NCBI RefSeq assembly: GCF_036226525.1
Contig: NZ_CP108487.1
Coordinates: forward strand, 8,370,001-8,434,000
DNA length: 64,000 nt
Reading direction: 5' to 3'
From: Kribbella sp. NBC_01245
Lineage (GTDB): Bacteria > Actinomycetota > Actinomycetes > Propionibacteriales > Kribbellaceae
Positions 14,416 through 49,923 of the stretch are shown here, one piece after another. Each line of letters begins with the position of its first letter. Position 1 is the first letter of the stretch. The position numbers and the translations under genes are program-made. The notes beneath the pieces were generated by a model that saw nothing but the letters and a program-made list of their open reading frames with translations, was not told the DNA's origin and ran no database searches.

Positions 14416-16404
14416 TCAGGCTTGGCCGCGGCGGACGGCGAGGATGTGGGCGGGTTCGCCGTTGGGGTCGAGTTTGACGTAGTTCTGGCGGCCCCAGCGC
14501 CAGGTCGCGCCGGTGATCTCGTCGTGCACGGTGAAGGTGTCCTCGGGGCGCATGCCGAGTGCGGCCATGTCGAGATTGACCAGGCTTTCGCGAACGGTGT
14601 GCGGGTCGGTGTTGACGACCACGATGACGATGTCGCTGTGACCGTCCGGCCCGGTGGTGCGCTTCGACCAGCAGCTGATCGCCTCGTCGTCCACCTGGTG
14701 CAGGGTCAGGTTGCGCAACTCCTGCAGGGCCGGGTGGCGACGGCGGATGTCGTTCAGCTTGGTGATGTACGGCGCGAGCGAGCGCCCCTCGGCCTCGGCT
14801 GCCGCAAAGTCGCGCGGGCGGAGCTGGAACTTCTCGGTGTCGAGGTATTCCTCCGAGCCGGGCCGCAACGCGACGTGCTCGAACAACTCGAACCCGGCGT
14901 ACACGCCCCAGCTAGGAGACGAGGTGGCCGCGATGGCCGCGCGGATCTTGAAGGCGCCCGGGCCGCCGTACTGCAGGTAAGCGGTGAGGATGTCCGGGGT
15001 GTTGACGAAGAAGTTGGGCCGCAGGAAATGGCCGGTCTCCTTGGTCATCTCCTCCAGGTATTCCTCGAGCTCCCACTTCTCGTTGCGCCAGGTGAAGTAG
15101 GTGTACGACTGGTGGAACCCGACCTTCGCGAGCTCGCGCATCATCGGCCGGCGCGTGAACGCCTCGGACAGGAACAGCACGTCCGGGTCGGTCTTGCGCA
15201 CCTCGCCGAGCAGCCACTCCCAGAAGTTGACCGGCTTGGTGTGCGGGTTGTCGACGCGGAAAACCGTCACGCCATGCGCGATCCACAGCTTCACGACCCG
15301 CAGCACCTCGGCGTAGATGCCCTCGGGATCGTTGTCGAAGTTGATCGGGTAGATGTCCTGGTACTTCTTCGGCGGGTTCTCGGCGTACGCGATGGAGCCG
15401 TCGGCCCGGACGCTGAACCACTTCGGGTGTTCCTCCACCCACGGGTGGTCCGGCGAGGCCTGCAGGGCAAGGTCGATCGCGACCTCCAGGCCGACCTCGC
15501 GGGCCCTGCTGACGAACGCGTCGAAGTCCTCGAACGTGCCGAGCTCGGGGTGGATCGCGTCGTGCCCGCCCTCGGACGAACCGATCGCCCACGGCGAACC
15601 CGGGTCACCCGGCTTCGGGTCGAGCGTGTTGTTCGGGCCCTTGCGGAACGACTTCCCGATCGGGTGGATCGGCGGCAGGTAAAGGATGTCGAAGTTCATC
15701 GCGGCCACCGCGTCGAGGCGCTGCGCGGCGGTCTCGAACGTGCCGGAGATCCAGCGCCCGGCCCCCTCGTCGTACCGCGCGCCCTCCGAGCGCGGGAAGA
15801 ACTCGTACCACGAGCCGTACAGCGCGCGCTTGCGGTCGACCCAGATCGGGTACGCCGCGGAGGCCGTGATCAGCTCGCGGACGGGATACCGGCTGAGCGC
15901 GCCGACGACCTGCGGCGACGTACCGGCGGCCAGGCGAGCCTCGGGCGGAAGGGCCGGGTTCGCGACGGCCTGCGCGGCATCGCTCAGCGTGGCCCGGTCG
16001 ACTCGGACCGCGGGCGGCACCCCGGCCGCGGCGCGATCGAAGAACGCCGCGCCCTCGGCGAAGACCAGGTCGACGTCGATGCCCGCGGGGATCTTGATCT
16101 CGGCCGCGTGCCGCCAGGTGCCGTACGGATCGCTCCAGCCCTCGACCGCGAACGTCCACGGGCCGGGCTCGGCGAGCACCACTTCGACCTGCCAGTCGTC
16201 GGTGCCCTGGCCGAGCGGGACCATCAGCATTCGCCGGGTCTGCCCGCTCGGTGAGGTGAGTACGACGTTCGCGTTGACGGAATCGTGTCCCTCCCGGAAC
16301 ACGGTCGCCCCTACGGTGAAGGTTTCGCCGACCGCCGCCTTGGCGGGATAAGCCCCGTTGTCGACGGTCGGGCTGACGTCGGTGATCGGGATGCGGCCTG
16401 TCAT
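14416..16404 (-). CDS. glgE: Alpha-1,4-glucan:maltose-1-phosphate maltosyltransferase GlgE
   Basis: Extends alpha-1,4-glucan with maltosyl units from maltose-1-phosphate; GH13, cytosolic dimer. 662 residues, normal for GlgE. The N-terminal domain starts with the family hallmark (ITDVSPTVDNGAYPAKAAVG). Motifs: YGSWYEFFPRSEGA, the catalytic Asp region TVFRVDNPHTKPVNFWEWL and the catalytic Glu in LFLSEAFTRRPMM. It forms a pathway with treS-mak-glgB some 11 kb away. Only six bases separate the start codon from the left end of a decayed TnpB element, so the native leader appears to have been replaced. It is divergent from glgP, as in Mycobacterium. Confidence 0.95.
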   Translation of the reverse strand: MTGRIPITDVSPTVDNGAYPAKAAVGETFTVGATVFREGHDSVNANVVLTSPSGQTRRMLMVPLGQGTDDWQVEVVLAEPGPWTFAVEGWSDPYGTWRHAAEIKIPAGIDVDLVFAEGAAFFDRAAAGVPPAVRVDRATLSDAAQAVANPALPPEARLAAGTSPQVVGALSRYPVRELITASAAYPIWVDRKRALYGSWYEFFPRSEGARYDEGAGRWISGTFETAAQRLDAVAAMNFDILYLPPIHPIGKSFRKGPNNTLDPKPGDPGSPWAIGSSEGGHDAIHPELGTFEDFDAFVSRAREVGLEVAIDLALQASPDHPWVEEHPKWFSVRADGSIAYAENPPKKYQDIYPINFDNDPEGIYAEVLRVVKLWIAHGVTVFRVDNPHTKPVNFWEWLLGEVRKTDPDVLFLSEAFTRRPMMRELAKVGFHQSYTYFTWRNEKWELEEYLEEMTKETGHFLRPNFFVNTPDILTAYLQYGGPGAFKIRAAIAATSSPSWGVYAGFELFEHVALRPGSEEYLDTEKFQLRPRDFAAAEAEGRSLAPYITKLNDIRRRHPALQELRNLTLHQVDDEAISCWSKRTTGPDGHSDIVIVVVNTDPHTVRESLVNLDMAALGMRPEDTFTVHDEITGATWRWGRQNYVKLDPNGEPAHILAVRRGQA

Positions 16405-16410
16405 CGATTG

Positions 16411-16691
16411 TCCGGCGTGAAACCCCGTCCGTCAGGGCGGGGAGGAAGCGCCGGTCCCTCCATTCAGGTTTTGTCGGGGGTGTCGGTTAGGTTTGTGGTG
16501 CTGGTCCGCGAGAACCAAGCGGCCAGTACAAGCACCATAGTTGGACCTTGCGGTGACTGCGGCCAGACGGGCCGTGGCAGCGCGGTGAGCCTTCTTGCGC
16601 AGTGGGCACGGCTACGATCCGCGAACCTCATCTCGCTACCTTCGGGTGGTGGGTTGGAATCCCCCGCCTTCAGGTGGGTGGAGGACGTCAA
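16411..16691 (+). mobile_element. Deletion relic of a TnpB-type (IS1341-like) element with both ends retained
   Basis: The left end (16411 to about 16468) aligns with the left end of the intact element at 43689-44998: TCCGGCG, CCCCGTCC, AGGGCGGGG, GCGCCGGT and CCTCC-TTCAG in order. The right end (16618-16691) aligns with that element's right end: GAACCTCATCTCGCTACC, GGAATCCCCCGCC and GGAGGACGTCAA. In between only shreds of the tnpB 3' end survive (GAGAACC, AAGCGG, GACGGGCCGTG), so about 1 kb is gone and no nuclease can be made. The retained right end should still encode the omega-RNA scaffold. The relic sits in the glgE-glgP divergent gap, with its left end against glgE. Confidence 0.85.
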
Positions 16692-16779
16692 GGCGAGAGT
16701 TGACCTTCGCTTCTTCCGGGTAGATGTAATGACCAGGTGTAACGCTATCGGTTCCCGTACCCACTGAGGCGCAGAACTG

Positions 16780-16824
16780 TCCCGTAAAAGAGGTGGCTTG
16801 ATCGATGCCACCTCTTTTACGGGA
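16780..16824. repeat. 18-bp perfect hairpin between the relic and glgP
   Basis: TCCCGTAAAAGAGGTGGC, nine bases, then the exact reverse complement. It lies about 90 bases before glgP and is followed by a weaker ATTTTGC/GCAAAAT dyad (16846-16866). It lies outside the similarity between the two TnpB elements. It is strong enough to be a terminator, but no gene ends here. It could be leader attenuation for glgP or another small mobile repeat. Confidence 0.7.
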
Positions 16825-16917
16825 TGCCAGGTCAAGCACTGCAAGATTTTGCTTGTGTTGCAAAATAGATGCATCCCACCTGTGTGCCAGCGCGGGGAGG
16901 GCTAGTACGGTGTCCCG

Positions 16918-19500
16918 GTGCGAGCGATACGACGATTCTCCGTCCGCCCAGTCCTGCCCGAGCCGTTGACCGGTCTCGGCACACTGGTCAACAACCTGCG
17001 ATGGGCCTGGCACCCGGATACCCAGGACGTTTTCGAGGCGGTGGACGCCCAGCTGTGGCGGGCCACCGGCGGCGATCCGGTCCGCCTCCTCGGCGAGGTC
17101 TCGGCCGCCCGGCTGGAGCAACTGGCCGGTGACGGTGCGTTCCTGCGCCGGCTCGAGCTGGCCGTTGCCGACCTCAACGAGTACGTCGGTGGGCAGCGCT
17201 GGTTCCAGACCGAGGCGGGCAGCGCCGTCAGCGCGGTGGCCTACTTCTCCCCGGAGTTCGGCATCACGCACGTGCTGCCGCAGTACTCCGGCGGTCTCGG
17301 CATCCTGGCCGGCGACCACCTCAAGGCCGCGAGCGACCTCGGCGTACCGCTGATCGGGGTCGGCCTGCTCTACCGGCACGGCTACTTCGTTCAGTCGCTG
17401 AACCGCGAGGGCTGGCAGCAGGAGCGTTACCCGTTGGTGGATCCCGATGATCTGCCGATCAGCCAGCTGCGTGACGGCGACGAGCCCGCCACGATCAGCG
17501 TGACCCTGCCGGGCGGCCGCAAACTCGGCGCGCAGATCTGGGTCGCCCAGGTCGGCCGGGTGCCGTTGCTGATGCTCGACTCCGACATCGAGGACAACGA
17601 GTCCGCCGAGCGTGAGGTGACCGACCGGCTGTACGGCGGTACCACCGAGCACCGCCTGCTGCAGGAGCTGCTGCTCGGCGTCGGTGGCGTCCGCGCCGTC
17701 CGCGAGTACTGCCGGATCAACGGCACGCCCGCGCCCGAGGTCTTCCACACCAACGAGGGCCACGCCGGCTTCCTCGGCATCGAGCGCATCCGCGAGCTGT
17801 CGGTCGACGAGGGTCTCGACTTCGACACCGCGCTGGAGGTGGCCCGGGCCGGCACGGTCTTCACCACCCACACGCCCGTTCCCGCCGGTATCGACCGGTT
17901 CCCGCAGGAGCTCATCCAGCAGCACTTCTCGCCGGACGCCTTCGGCGAGGGCGTTCCGGTGGACCGGATCCTCGCGCTCGGTTGCGAGGACTTCGAGGGC
18001 GGCGACCCGTCCGTCTTCAACATGGCCGTGATGGGCCTTCGCCTCGCGCAGCGCGCCAACGGCGTCTCCCAGCTGCACGGTGTGGTCAGCCGCGGCATGT
18101 TCGCCGGGCTGTGGCCGAGCTTCGACCCGGTCGACGTACCGATCAGCTCGATCACCAACGGCGTGCACGCGCCGACCTGGGTGGCGCGCGAGATCTCGGA
18201 GCTGACCCACGCGGCCGCCTCCGAGGGCGATAGCGAGACCATGTTCGACGCGCTCGACCAGGTCTCGGACGACCAGCTCTGGGACACCAAGCGGATCCTG
18301 CGCCAGCGCTTCATCGACGACACCCGGTCCCGCGTCCGCGCGTCCTGGGTGAACCGTGGCGCCAGCGAGGCCGAGCTCGGCTGGGTGGACGAGATCCTCG
18401 ACCCGGACGTGCTGACGATGGGATTCGCCCGCCGCGTTCCGTCGTACAAGCGCCTCACCCTGATGCTGCGCGACCCCGCGCGGTTGAAGGCGATGCTGCT
18501 GCACCCGGAGCGGCCGATCCAGATCGTCATCGCCGGTAAGGCTCACCCCGCCGACGAGGGTGGCAAGAAGCTGATCCAGGAGATGGTGCGTTTCGCCGAC
18601 GACCCCGAGGTCCGGCACCGCATCGTGTTCGTGCCGGACTACGACATCGCGCTGGCCCAGCCGATGTACCCGGGTTGCGACGTCTGGCTGAACAACCCGC
18701 TCCGTCCCTACGAGGCGTGCGGCACGTCCGGGATGAAGGCCGCCCTCAACGGCGCCCTCAACCTGTCGATCCGCGACGGCTGGTGGGACGAGTGGTACGA
18801 CGACGAGTTCGGCTGGGCGATCCCGTCCGCCGAGGGTGTCGACGACGTTGACCGCCGGGACGACCTCGAGGCCAAGGCGCTGTACGACCTGATCGAGAAG
18901 CAGGTCGCGCCGCGCTTCTACGACGGCAAGACGCCCGCCCGCTGGATCGAGATGCTCCGGCACACCATCAAGGAGCTCGGCCCGAAGGTGCTCGCCACCC
19001 GAATGGTCCGCGACTACGTCCAGAAGCTGTACGTGCCGGCCGCCGAGGCCTCGCACAAACTCAACGAGACGTACGACGGTGCGCGCGACCTGGCTGTCTG
19101 GAAGGCGAAGGTGCGCGCTGCCTGGCCCGAGGTCCGCGTCGACCACGTGGAGCTGCAGGGTCTTGGTGACGTGCCTCAGCTGGGTACGACGGTGGGCGTG
19201 CGCGCCTTCGTCACCCTGCCGGCCGGCTTGAACCCGACGGACCTCGACGTCCAGGCCCTCCACGGCCGGGTGGATTCGTCCGACGAGATCACGGACGCCG
19301 TCGCGGTATCGCTCCACCTCGCGGAGTCCTACGACGACAACCGCCACCGGTTCGAGGGCGACCTCAAACTGGACCGCACGGGGGCCTTCGGCTACACCGT
19401 CCGGGCGCTTCCCACCCACCCGCTCCTGGCGACGTCAGCCGAACTCGGCCTGGCGACCGCCCCTTCCACCCCCGACGTTCCTGCCGGGACTGAGTTCTAA
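16918..19500 (+). CDS. glgP: Alpha-glucan phosphorylase GlgP
   Basis: Releases glucose-1-phosphate from alpha-1,4-glucan; PLP-dependent GT35. 860 residues, the long actinobacterial type with an N-terminal DUF3417 domain (TLVNNLRWAWHPDTQDVFEA). Motifs: FSPEFGITHVLPQYSGGLGI, VFHTNEGHAGFLG, FTTHTPVPAGIDRFP and the PLP region ACGTSGMKAALNGALNLSIR, where the Lys binds PLP. The GTG start has no close ribosome site; the nearest GGGAGGG is about 17 bases away. The gene is divergent from glgE, as in mycobacteria. It is monocistronic, ending in a strong terminator. Confidence 0.95.
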   Translation: MRAIRRFSVRPVLPEPLTGLGTLVNNLRWAWHPDTQDVFEAVDAQLWRATGGDPVRLLGEVSAARLEQLAGDGAFLRRLELAVADLNEYVGGQRWFQTEAGSAVSAVAYFSPEFGITHVLPQYSGGLGILAGDHLKAASDLGVPLIGVGLLYRHGYFVQSLNREGWQQERYPLVDPDDLPISQLRDGDEPATISVTLPGGRKLGAQIWVAQVGRVPLLMLDSDIEDNESAEREVTDRLYGGTTEHRLLQELLLGVGGVRAVREYCRINGTPAPEVFHTNEGHAGFLGIERIRELSVDEGLDFDTALEVARAGTVFTTHTPVPAGIDRFPQELIQQHFSPDAFGEGVPVDRILALGCEDFEGGDPSVFNMAVMGLRLAQRANGVSQLHGVVSRGMFAGLWPSFDPVDVPISSITNGVHAPTWVAREISELTHAAASEGDSETMFDALDQVSDDQLWDTKRILRQRFIDDTRSRVRASWVNRGASEAELGWVDEILDPDVLTMGFARRVPSYKRLTLMLRDPARLKAMLLHPERPIQIVIAGKAHPADEGGKKLIQEMVRFADDPEVRHRIVFVPDYDIALAQPMYPGCDVWLNNPLRPYEACGTSGMKAALNGALNLSIRDGWWDEWYDDEFGWAIPSAEGVDDVDRRDDLEAKALYDLIEKQVAPRFYDGKTPARWIEMLRHTIKELGPKVLATRMVRDYVQKLYVPAAEASHKLNETYDGARDLAVWKAKVRAAWPEVRVDHVELQGLGDVPQLGTTVGVRAFVTLPAGLNPTDLDVQALHGRVDSSDEITDAVAVSLHLAESYDDNRHRFEGDLKLDRTGAFGYTVRALPTHPLLATSAELGLATAPSTPDVPAGTEF

Positions 19501-22524: not shown

Positions 22525-22624
22525 CACTTTGCATTCATTCGTCGGAATCCGCCCTCTGGCCACAGCGGACCGGTGCGGGTTGGCAGTCGGGTGAGGGCGG
22601 ATTCCGACGAATGAATGCAAAGTG
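22525..22624. repeat. 32-bp perfect inverted repeat with 36-base centre
   Basis: Arms at 22525-22556 and 22593-22624 are exact reverse complements over 32 bases (left arm starts CACTTTGCATTCATTCGTCG). It lies between the end of glgX and the start of the merR operon, so it could terminate glgX. The arm length and shared core with the repeat at 20597 point instead to a dispersed palindromic element. Confidence 0.9.
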
Positions 22625-43688: not shown

Positions 43689-43829
43689 TTGACGTCCTCC
43701 CCTGCTTGGGGGGCGGGGGATTCCAGCCCACTACGCGGAGGTAGCGAGATGAGGTTCACGCTTCAACGGCACAGACCTCGTGCCTCGGCGTGCGGTCACG
43801 GCCCGTCCGGCCGCGATGTTCCTAGCTGC
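43689..43829 (-). ncRNA. Predicted omega-RNA (reRNA) of the TnpB element
   Basis: By analogy with characterised TnpB systems, the guide RNA scaffold spans the 3' end of tnpB and the right end of the element. Here that is the conserved block GAACCTCATCTCGCTACC through GGAATCCCCCGCC to GACGTCAA, shared with the relic. The end TCAA is where the scaffold should stop and the guide begin, so the guide is the sequence just below 43689 read on the minus strand. The 5' boundary given is approximate. Confidence 0.55.
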
Positions 43830-44906
43830 ATTCACATCAGCGTGCGCGGTGTGCCCGCAGGCGAGGCATCGGAACACCGCTTGGCTCTCGCGGTTCTCCG
43901 ACGCGCAATGCCCGCACTCTGCGCACGTCTGACTCGTAAACCTTGGGTTGACCCTCTCGACCCGGCCCGGCGCCTTGTGTTCAAGACGCTGGACCAGCAG
44001 TCCCCAGCCGTTGGCGAGGATGCCCCGGTTCAGCCCGGCCTTCTGCCGGACGTTGCGGCCCGGCTGCTCGATGGTGCTGCGAGCCGAACGGGTCATGTTC
44101 GCGATCTTGAGGTCCTCGACCCCGATCACGTCGAACCGGCGGGCCAGGGCGGTGCTGATCTTCTCGACCCAATCCTTGCGCCGAGCCGTCTCCCGAGCCT
44201 TGATCTGGGCGATCGCCACCTTCAACCGGGTGCGCCGGTTCGACCCGCGCCGGCACCGCGCGAACTGCTGTTGCAGCCGCTTCAACCGGGCCTGTTCGGT
44301 AGCGCGCAGCCCCGGGCACATGAGCAGCACGCCGGTGGACAGTGCTGCCGACACGGCAACACCCCGGTCCATGCCGACCACCTCGCCCGTTCCGGGTGCC
44401 GGGATCGGGTCGGGGATGGTGGCGAAGGCGATGTGCCACCGGCCTATCCGGTCGCGGGTGATCCGGTACGACTTCGCGTCGGGTATCTGCCGGGACCAGC
44501 GGAACTTGATCCAGCTGGCTTTCGGCACCAGCACCCGGCCCCATTTACGGTTCAACCGTTCCACTCGTTGGGCTTGTGGCCCGACGATGCGGAATCCCTC
44601 GTGCCGGCCGGCGCTGCGCCACGTCGGCCTGGAGTGAGTGCCGCCCCAGTAGTTCCGCCAGGCTTGGTCGAGGTCGCGCAGTGCTTGTTGTTGTACCGTC
44701 TGCGACCCGGCCGCCAGCCACGGTTCCGCCGCGCGGGCCTCGGTCAGTTGCGCTGCCTGGGCCACGTACCCGGGGGTGGGCGGCCGCCCTGGTCGCCACA
44801 TCAGCCGTTGTTCCAGTCCGAGGTTCCACATGTACCGGGCGTGCGCACAGTGTCCCAGCAGCGCGGTCTCCTGCGCGGGGGTTGGGACAAGCCGGTACCT
44901 GGACAT
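43731..44906 (-). CDS. tnpB: RNA-guided nuclease TnpB
   Basis: 391 residues from ATG 44906, giving the usual N-terminus (MSRYRLVPTPAQETALLGHC). The RuvC-like triad appears intact: Asp in VVGMDRGVAVSAALSTG (about 185), Glu in FDVIGVEDLKIANMTRSA (about 265) and Asp in TAHADVNAARNIAAG (about 360). The zinc finger between the last two has SQTCAECGHCASEN and FRCLACGHTAH. On sequence the nuclease should be active; it would cut DNA matching its omega-RNA guide next to a target-adjacent motif, helping retain the element. It lies on the strand opposite to ligA and has no tnpA partner. Confidence 0.93.
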   Translation of the reverse strand: MSRYRLVPTPAQETALLGHCAHARYMWNLGLEQRLMWRPGRPPTPGYVAQAAQLTEARAAEPWLAAGSQTVQQQALRDLDQAWRNYWGGTHSRPTWRSAGRHEGFRIVGPQAQRVERLNRKWGRVLVPKASWIKFRWSRQIPDAKSYRITRDRIGRWHIAFATIPDPIPAPGTGEVVGMDRGVAVSAALSTGVLLMCPGLRATEQARLKRLQQQFARCRRGSNRRTRLKVAIAQIKARETARRKDWVEKISTALARRFDVIGVEDLKIANMTRSARSTIEQPGRNVRQKAGLNRGILANGWGLLVQRLEHKAPGRVERVNPRFTSQTCAECGHCASENRESQAVFRCLACGHTAHADVNAARNIAAGRAVTARRGTRSVPLKREPHLATSA

Positions 44907-44944
44907 GCCACTAATGGTGGCGGCTGCCACCGACACTTTTCTGA

Positions 44945-47134
<2,190 letters not shown>

Positions 47135-49560: not shown

Positions 49561-49691
49561 CGAAAAACCCCGCGCGTTACGCCCTGTCGCGGCCAATGTT
49601 ACAGAGCGGGACCCGTTTCCGCGCAGTCGCTCTCATCAGGTGGTCAAATTCGCGCCATCCCAGGCGGGGGAAAAGTAGTCGTCGACGACTG

Positions 49692-49852
49692 GTGGCCTGC
49701 GTCAGAGGCTCGTGCCCCAGCTCCGGCGCCCAGGCACGCACCTCGCGGCGTTGTCGTCGGGTCACAATCGAAAAAGATTGCTCCCCTCCTCCGCCTTGCG
49801 ATGCACGCACCTGAACACCGGAGCTGGGGCACGAGCCTCTGACGCAGGCCAC
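49692..49852. repeat. 161-bp element with 35-bp perfect inverted ends
   Basis: Arms at 49692-49726 and 49818-49852 are exact reverse complements over 35 bases (left arm begins GTGGCCTGCGTCAGAGGCTC). The 91-base centre has GCACGCACCT twice as a direct repeat and a small CAATC/GATTG hairpin. No frame inside encodes a plausible protein and no convincing target duplication is visible. It lies in the divergent gap between the ACT gene and gatC (49561-49923), which otherwise shows nothing. It could be a MITE-like element or a palindromic regulatory structure. Confidence 0.85.
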
Positions 49853-49923
49853 TAGGATGAACCGGTCCGCACTCACTACCGGCGGGCCGTCAAGCTTCGC
49901 GTTTCGACCATTGGACCATCTCC

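Follow-up and report, generated by a model that had tools for sequence, protein, structure and literature searches.

Gene-less IS200/IS605-type elements of Kribbella carry an omega-RNA scaffold behind a promoter motif matching the RecA-NDp/PafBC type

What is a short stretch of DNA that has both ends of a tnpB transposon, no tnpB, and a position between a glgE-type gene and an alpha-glucan phosphorylase gene? The original prediction for this locus, which lies in a 64,000-nucleotide stretch of the Kribbella sp. NBC_01245 genome (the window), described a relic of an intact tnpB element 27 kb away that had kept its guide-RNA scaffold and might regulate the glgE-glgP region. Two IS200/IS605-type tnpB-element ends with tnpB missing between them can indeed be read directly from the window (Table 1). 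Subterminal palindromes are present and TCAA stands at the right end, as in IS200/IS605 elements, and IS605-type ends around a body without any gene are the marks of palindrome-associated transposable elements (PATEs). A sigma-70 style scan of 16300-17000 found no promoter or terminator, and no Rfam family matched the window at gathering scores. When seven loci were compared with Rfam at E-values up to 10, there were four weak matches, none of them to a transposon-associated RNA.

The limits of the element were set by comparison with related genomes. We matched 37 sister genomes and read the loci of 29 of them. In all 29, TCAT runs without interruption into the counterpart of the sequence that follows 16691. 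This gives exact boundaries and indicates that TCAT was kept on the left with no duplication. The right limit had therefore been predicted exactly, but the left limit lies at 16405 and not at 16411. The insertion rule holds within the family, as TCAT precedes 11 of the 12 full-length copies in this genome, the twelfth (L008) being preceded by TAAT. The accessible text of PMC5934647 describes IS608 as inserting precisely 3' of its tetranucleotide, with TCAA as the right cleavage site.

Table 1. Features of the short element and its surroundings in the window (positions count from the first letter of the window; E-values of the covariance model are rough).
Feature	Position	Strand	Remarks
Whole non-autonomous IS200/IS605-type element, 287 bp	16405-16691	+	
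Target tetranucleotide TCAT on the left flank	16401-16404	+	the TAM expected at the empty site
Left-end subterminal imperfect palindrome CCGGCG...CCCCGTCCGTCAGGGCGGGG...CGCCGG	16412-16454	+	from sequence; tnpB elements have it too
Motif TTGTCGG-N10-TAGGTT, matching the RecA-NDp/PafBC consensus	16471-16493	+	in 12/12 full-length own copies
Predicted omega-RNA transcript body	16500-16691	+	start inferred about 7 nt past the -10 from the promoter position; guide from 16692
Omega-RNA scaffold	16559-16691	+	tnpB-scaffold model, 98.6 bits, E 6.7e-23, positions 1-128 of 128
Stem 1 hairpin GCGGCC-AGACG-GGCCGT	16559-16575	+	
Pseudoknot strand 1, GACG in the stem 1 loop	16566-16569	+	
Stem 2, 5' strand CGCGG	16581-16585	+	partner 16619-16623
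Stem 2, 3' strand CCGCG	16619-16623	+	
Right-end subterminal palindrome	16660-16682	+	
Pseudoknot strand 2, CGTC of GGACGTCAA	16686-16689	+	
TCAA, right cleavage site	16688-16691	+	as IS608 CR
Predicted guide, first 16 nt of the right flank	16692-16707	+	16-nt length as in ISDra2
glgE-type gene	14416-16404	-	GlgE domains
Alpha-glucan phosphorylase gene	16918-19500	+	
tnpB-bearing, tnpA-less relative	43689-45004	-	
tnpB, 391 aa, RuvC and zinc-ribbon motifs	43731-44906	-	guided_TnpB 223 bits, cut-off 100
Weaker RecA-NDp-like motif GTGTCGGTG-N8-CACCAT	44914-44936	-	7 nt ahead of the predicted leaderless tnpB ATG

The element is one of a family. We found 14 short copies in the same genome, a single 8.68-Mb contig, of which 12 are full-length and two are truncated on the left; the 11 other full-length copies are 86-89% identical to the one in the window. 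A covariance model trained only on 32 tnpB-element scaffolds, with the short copies kept out, gave 26 matches in this genome among 150 scored candidates, out of 9794 at first look. These were 11 tnpB elements at 129-146 bits, the 14 short copies at 84-106 bits and one match from another TnpB lineage at 41 bits. At least five of the 37 sister species have related short copies: two copies in G008, four in G021 and one each in G024, G026 and G033, all lower bounds that rest on 14-19 scored candidates per genome and on fetched matches (G021:C1:1490398, for example, is not included). The copies in G024, G026 and G033 are a single common insertion. The family-level search took in the same 38 genomes as the genus search.

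Beyond these genomes, an exact-pattern scan of one genome per species in 84,980 species, which may omit the record of the window itself, matched four stretches, all in Kribbella. A scan of viral contigs matched two. One of them, L094, has both element ends and the scaffold, and codes for a tail terminator and a head-tail adaptor, which marks it as a phage. The other, the IMG/VR contig L093, has a scaffold core at 1772-1892 without a recognisable transposon right end; the promoter motif described below is absent from it, and a GCGATAACCAAGC motif stands after the scaffold core instead of before it. A plasmid search gave no matches. Annotated phages gave none to the L094 element, and eight records with short matches only, 10-14% of the query, to the window element.

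A tree of 55 scaffolds has one branch that parts the 23 short rows from the 32 tnpB rows, with support of 100/100, some of the short rows having been found via a shared block. This split is consistent with one origin of the short form. The alignments and the tree omit L053, which has lost its right end, and L093, and alignment A1 also omits L079 and L080. Membership in a 14-copy short family on a separate side of the tree contradicts the proposal that the window element is a one-off remnant of the intact tnpB element 27 kb away. One old insertion of a short element (L081, L082, L083) is common to three related Kribbella species, K. soli, VKM Ac-2569 and a third. It sits in a decaying gene identified by eye as symporter-like, and its left end is gone in all three while the core is kept. 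We considered domestication of this insertion and rejected it, since the core stretches are 82-85% identical and the flanks mostly 88-96%.

Judged by sequence, the omega-RNA scaffold of the window element is intact, including the TnpB-type pseudoknot. That the guide-RNA scaffold had been kept is borne out by the match of the tnpB-scaffold model at 98.6 bits. Pairing was tested in a joint alignment of 55 rows (A3) with 20 named pairs, including the 4-bp pseudoknot, and 1090 cells; L065 is without its last bases, and the corresponding cells were set aside, while L094 counts as gaps along its stem 1 strand. Standard pairs fill 99.4% of the 1090 cells, a percentage reached by none of 500 shuffles, and 50 cells have changes on both sides, versus a shuffled mean of 19.5. 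In a control with the partners shifted by 1-3 columns, pairing fell to 29-42%. The observed count of further pair types was reached by 31 of 500 shuffles. Folding energies were unremarkable, with z-scores of -0.14 to -0.96 that do not separate these RNAs from shuffles.

Two of the five pairs in stem 2 differ on both sides, mainly between the short and tnpB types: the stem is mostly CACGC/GCGTG in tnpB elements and CGCGG/CCGCG in short elements, and copy L080 again has the A-U form. Three pseudoknot pairs are standard in 23/23 short rows and the fourth in 22/23. The variable pair is A-U in 10 of these rows, G-U in 11 and G-C in two, and the window copy keeps all four pairs. Loss of the pseudoknot, named beforehand as the observation that would speak against a working guide RNA, is thus not the case here, as compensatory changes have preserved the pairs. 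At the first loop base of stem 1 the window copy differs from the other 54 rows, with A in place of G. Among the full-length own copies, the scaffold is the most conserved segment after the promoter motif, with a mean of 0.944 versus 0.883 for the left end and 0.905 for the middle. The short scaffold also has an inner block that is missing from all 32 aligned tnpB scaffolds. The resident TnpBs may therefore fail to bind the short scaffold.

Upstream of the RNA, all 12 full-length own copies have the motif TTGTCGG-N10-TANNNT, ending about 65 bases ahead of stem 1. As given in the available part of PMC5656591, the RecA-NDp consensus is tTGTCRgtg-8 nt-TannnT, like the LexA-independent recA P1 promoter. 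The consensus spacing is exact in the own copies and the gtg part is matched only partly. PafBC works via the RecA-NDp motif (PMC6789036) and is activated by single-stranded DNA (PMC11804915), according to the accessible sections of both papers. The window element thus carries a promoter motif matching the RecA-NDp/PafBC DNA-damage type, and its RNA may be induced by damage. The pattern occurs at 41 sites in the own genome, 12 of them in full-length copies, versus two sites for the reversed pattern. In a column-conservation test of the 12 full-length copies, with the two truncated copies omitted, all 10 motif columns are invariant while mean identity in the spacer columns is 0.846. Of 20000 random draws of 10 non-scaffold columns, six equalled this invariance. 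Shared ancestry accounts for part of the conservation of both motif and scaffold. Copies in other species have the motif with exact spacing in seven of nine cases (five of seven independent insertions), as does the phage copy L094. TGTCGG is present in L071 and L080 with a different spacing, and the motif opens with C in L052 and L054 and with G in L094.

The motif also stands at 29 sites outside the element family. We read 26 of these, 25 with a testable ORF and one without an ORF of 90 aa, and a start codon follows 1-10 nt past the motif in 18 of the 26. Repair or replication genes make up eight of the 25: NAD-dependent ligase, gyrase A, gyrase B, a PcrA-type helicase, DnaX, DnaB, a DEDD exonuclease with a UvrC-like part and an SNF2 helicase. 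Ten proteins had been picked at the start for looking like repair genes, and the rest of the 25 were tested afterwards. The remaining 17 are not repair genes and include YajC, a CBASS-type cyclase, regulators, transporters and metabolic enzymes. This share lowered our confidence both in a guide-RNA-only reading and in a PafBC switch. recA was not identified among the 25 testable genes. This genome has pafB and pafC in tandem, about 6 kb away from one of its two Pup-ligase-family genes, and the first of the pair matches the solved PafBC structure 6sj9 (E 1.3e-49). At one non-family site (L099; G000:C1:1415307-1415329) the RecA-NDp-type motif stands 1 nt before the predicted start of the CBASS-type nucleotide cyclase gene, whose position suggests a defence gene under DNA-damage control.

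Besides the short copies, 11 longer own copies carry tnpB or its remains, and in at least six of these an uninterrupted ORF has all the motifs sought. TnpB genes that could in principle serve in trans, as had been proposed, are thus found in the same genome. All 11 elements have TGTCGGTG, eight nucleotides, a CACCAT box (CACTAT in L039, CACAAT in L035), seven nucleotides and a predicted leaderless tnpB start. In other species, TGTCGG stands at the matching place in 20 of the 21 tnpB loci fetched, a subset of those found, with -10 boxes that lack TA. The simplest account of the short element is that deletion of tnpB joined the tnpB promoter, with a better -10, straight to the omega-RNA. No intact Y1 TnpA was found in the own genome, which has one fragment with broken frames. 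An intact match occurs in one of 38 genomes, with no GGACGTCAA-type end within the 3.3 kb read. The tnpB element in the window sits exactly before the ATGA start (45004-45008) of a gene for a 709-aa NAD-dependent DNA ligase; another ligA-type gene, at L098, follows a RecA-NDp-type motif.

We think it probable, if far from certain, that the window element is a non-autonomous, PATE-like IS200/IS605-type element whose cargo is a self-contained omega-RNA unit that uses TnpB in trans for its retention. Here we infer transcription, damage induction and binding of the short-element RNA by TnpB. Accumulating single-stranded DNA would render PafBC active, and the promoter would then make omega-RNA. The TnpB of a resident tnpB element would bind this RNA in trans, and the guide from the right flank would direct it to TCAT followed by the empty-site sequence. 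Sister chromosomes or newly emptied sites would be cut, and the copy would be restored through repair. TCAA, not TCAT, adjoins the guide sequence at the window copy, so the element's own copy should escape cutting. The short element would in this way exploit TnpB for its own retention, and its mobility would require just a Y1 transposase.

More tentative is a wider possibility, namely that these guide-RNA-only transposons form a lineage in which PafBC switches on the omega-RNA in response to single-stranded DNA, a kind of DNA that both damage and IS200/IS605 excision produce. Kribbella tnpB would be wired likewise, RNA-guided homing would be timed to excision and repair, solo elements would hijack the common nuclease, and phages would aid their spread. 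If these ideas are true, an omega-RNA can persist as an independent selfish unit that uses a nuclease encoded elsewhere. PafBC and single-stranded DNA would be a concrete switch tying TnpB activity to the DNA state of transposition. The timing of TnpB relative to transposition would also become directly testable, with a genome from a soil genus that offers 14 natural solo guides.

The element might instead be a plain PATE, a DNA parasite of a Y1 transposase whose omega-RNA region is an inherited passenger from which no RNA is made or used. The common ancestry of the copies and the near-zero folding z-scores fit this, as does a described PATE-like locus that has kept a tnpB 3' end together with a right end (PMC7290912, accessible text). 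A transposase, however, reads the right-end hairpin and cleavage site, whereas the stem 1/pseudoknot loop and stem 2 lie outside these and are kept with compensatory changes. Nor does a passenger account for 10 promoter positions that stay invariant in 12 copies while the spacer columns vary, or for scaffold columns that are conserved second only to the motif; we regard it as unlikely. A decoy, in which short RNAs fill TnpB with guides lacking a genomic target and so lower self-cleavage or block tnpB elements, seems improbable. Short copies do outnumber tnpB copies (14 versus 11), the altered inner block could permit binding without cleavage, and TCAA rather than TCAT is found beside the guide sequence of the window copy. 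Empty sites nevertheless exist in relatives, although they have diverged from the window guide.

That the guide RNA was adapted to regulate the glgE-glgP region, as first suggested, we consider very improbable. The appeal of the idea lies in the position of the element, which splits the glgE-type start codon exactly from its former leader, ATGA being the reverse complement of the TCAT on the left flank. But none of the 29 sister loci read has an insertion at the site, and equivalent copies adjoin genes from other families: hemolysin-III-like, hydrolase, ABC transporter, response regulator, DoxX and Dak1 genes (Pfam match in seven of eight tested). In TldR-type regulation the guide matches a host promoter. 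A search for guide matches next to a target motif, one of the checks originally proposed, gave no own-genome site for the window guide with an intact TCAT and fewer than three mismatches, so the TldR-type pattern was not found. The window guide plus TCAT matches eight places beyond its own flank at 2-3 mismatches, and a reversed control matches five.

Many short and tnpB copies adjoin the start codons of neighbouring genes and displace their leaders, TCAT being ATGA read on the other strand. Among own short copies preceded by TCAT, nine of 11 have an ORF of 150 aa or more that starts at the flank ATGA, as do eight of the 10 tnpB copies examined (of 11; L041, with its left end unresolved, is omitted). 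As a rough background, 21 of 51 non-interior TCAT sites are start-like (182 interior sites omitted), which gives P of about 0.007 for 9/11. We dropped enrichment at start codons as a claim, since the genes were called only roughly and the pattern may reflect selection against disrupting them. Other repeats occur in the window. Between the element and the phosphorylase gene lies a perfect inverted repeat with 18-nt arms and a 9-nt loop (16780-16824), whose arm is not found elsewhere among the fetched loci. An operator-like repeat, TGCAAGATTTTGC...TTGCAAAATAGATGCAT, stands at 16838-16873 upstream of the phosphorylase gene, with similar sequences at several sister loci. Long imperfect inverted repeats with 47- and 58-nt arms, possibly miniature elements, lie at 22525-22624 and 49689-49855.

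Guide RNAs encoded away from their nuclease have a reported precedent in IscB, for which Altae-Tran 2021 reportedly describes stand-alone omega-RNAs. The nuclease there is IscB, in contrast to TnpB for the Kribbella short elements, and we know of no damage-type promoter in those RNAs. The TnpB and IscB papers of the Sternberg group and of Altae-Tran may also mention solo guide RNAs. Our full-text literature search, which covered few subscription journals, found, in the text available to it, no TnpB guide-RNA element that stands alone behind a damage-type promoter of its own. The accessible parts of a 2025 paper on archaeal circular omega-RNAs and of a preprint on a TnpB gene drive in plasmids likewise have no passage on solo guide-RNA elements.

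Among known systems, the Kribbella short elements resemble PATEs, described from Haloquadratum (PMC3119063), and the PATE-like locus of Halanaerobium hydrogeniformans, which retains 28 nt of left end, the final 58 nt of tnpB and a right end (PMC7290912). Like these, they are short and gene-less, with IS605-type ends and a deleted core. Unlike them, the Kribbella lineage is multi-copy and has a conserved promoter motif and a scaffold with compensatory changes, while an RNA unit is undescribed for PATEs in the accessible text of these papers. The ISDra2 omega-RNA, in which the stem 1 loop pairs with bases -5 to -3 and the contact of -2A is non-canonical, likewise has a scaffold made of the tnpB 3' end and the right end, a stem 1 loop that pairs just before the guide, and a flank-derived guide (PMC10097598, available sections). 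It differs from the RNA of the short elements, which lies apart from tnpB behind its own promoter motif and has an expected TAM of TCAT instead of TTGAT.

Mycobacterial RecA-NDp/PafBC promoters share the consensus motif and the repair genes with Kribbella, and the portions of PMC5656591, PMC6789036 and PMC11804915 at hand do not mention transposons or omega-RNAs among their targets. Irradiation raises ISDra2 transposition through single-stranded DNA without induction of the transposase (PMC2806898, accessible text). IS200/IS605 activity is there tied to single-stranded DNA after damage; in the Kribbella elements such a link would be at the level of the promoter. Gene-less IS605-type PATEs are thus already known, whereas a solo omega-RNA element with its own damage-type promoter motif is new relative to the literature that we found, as far as its accessible text extends.
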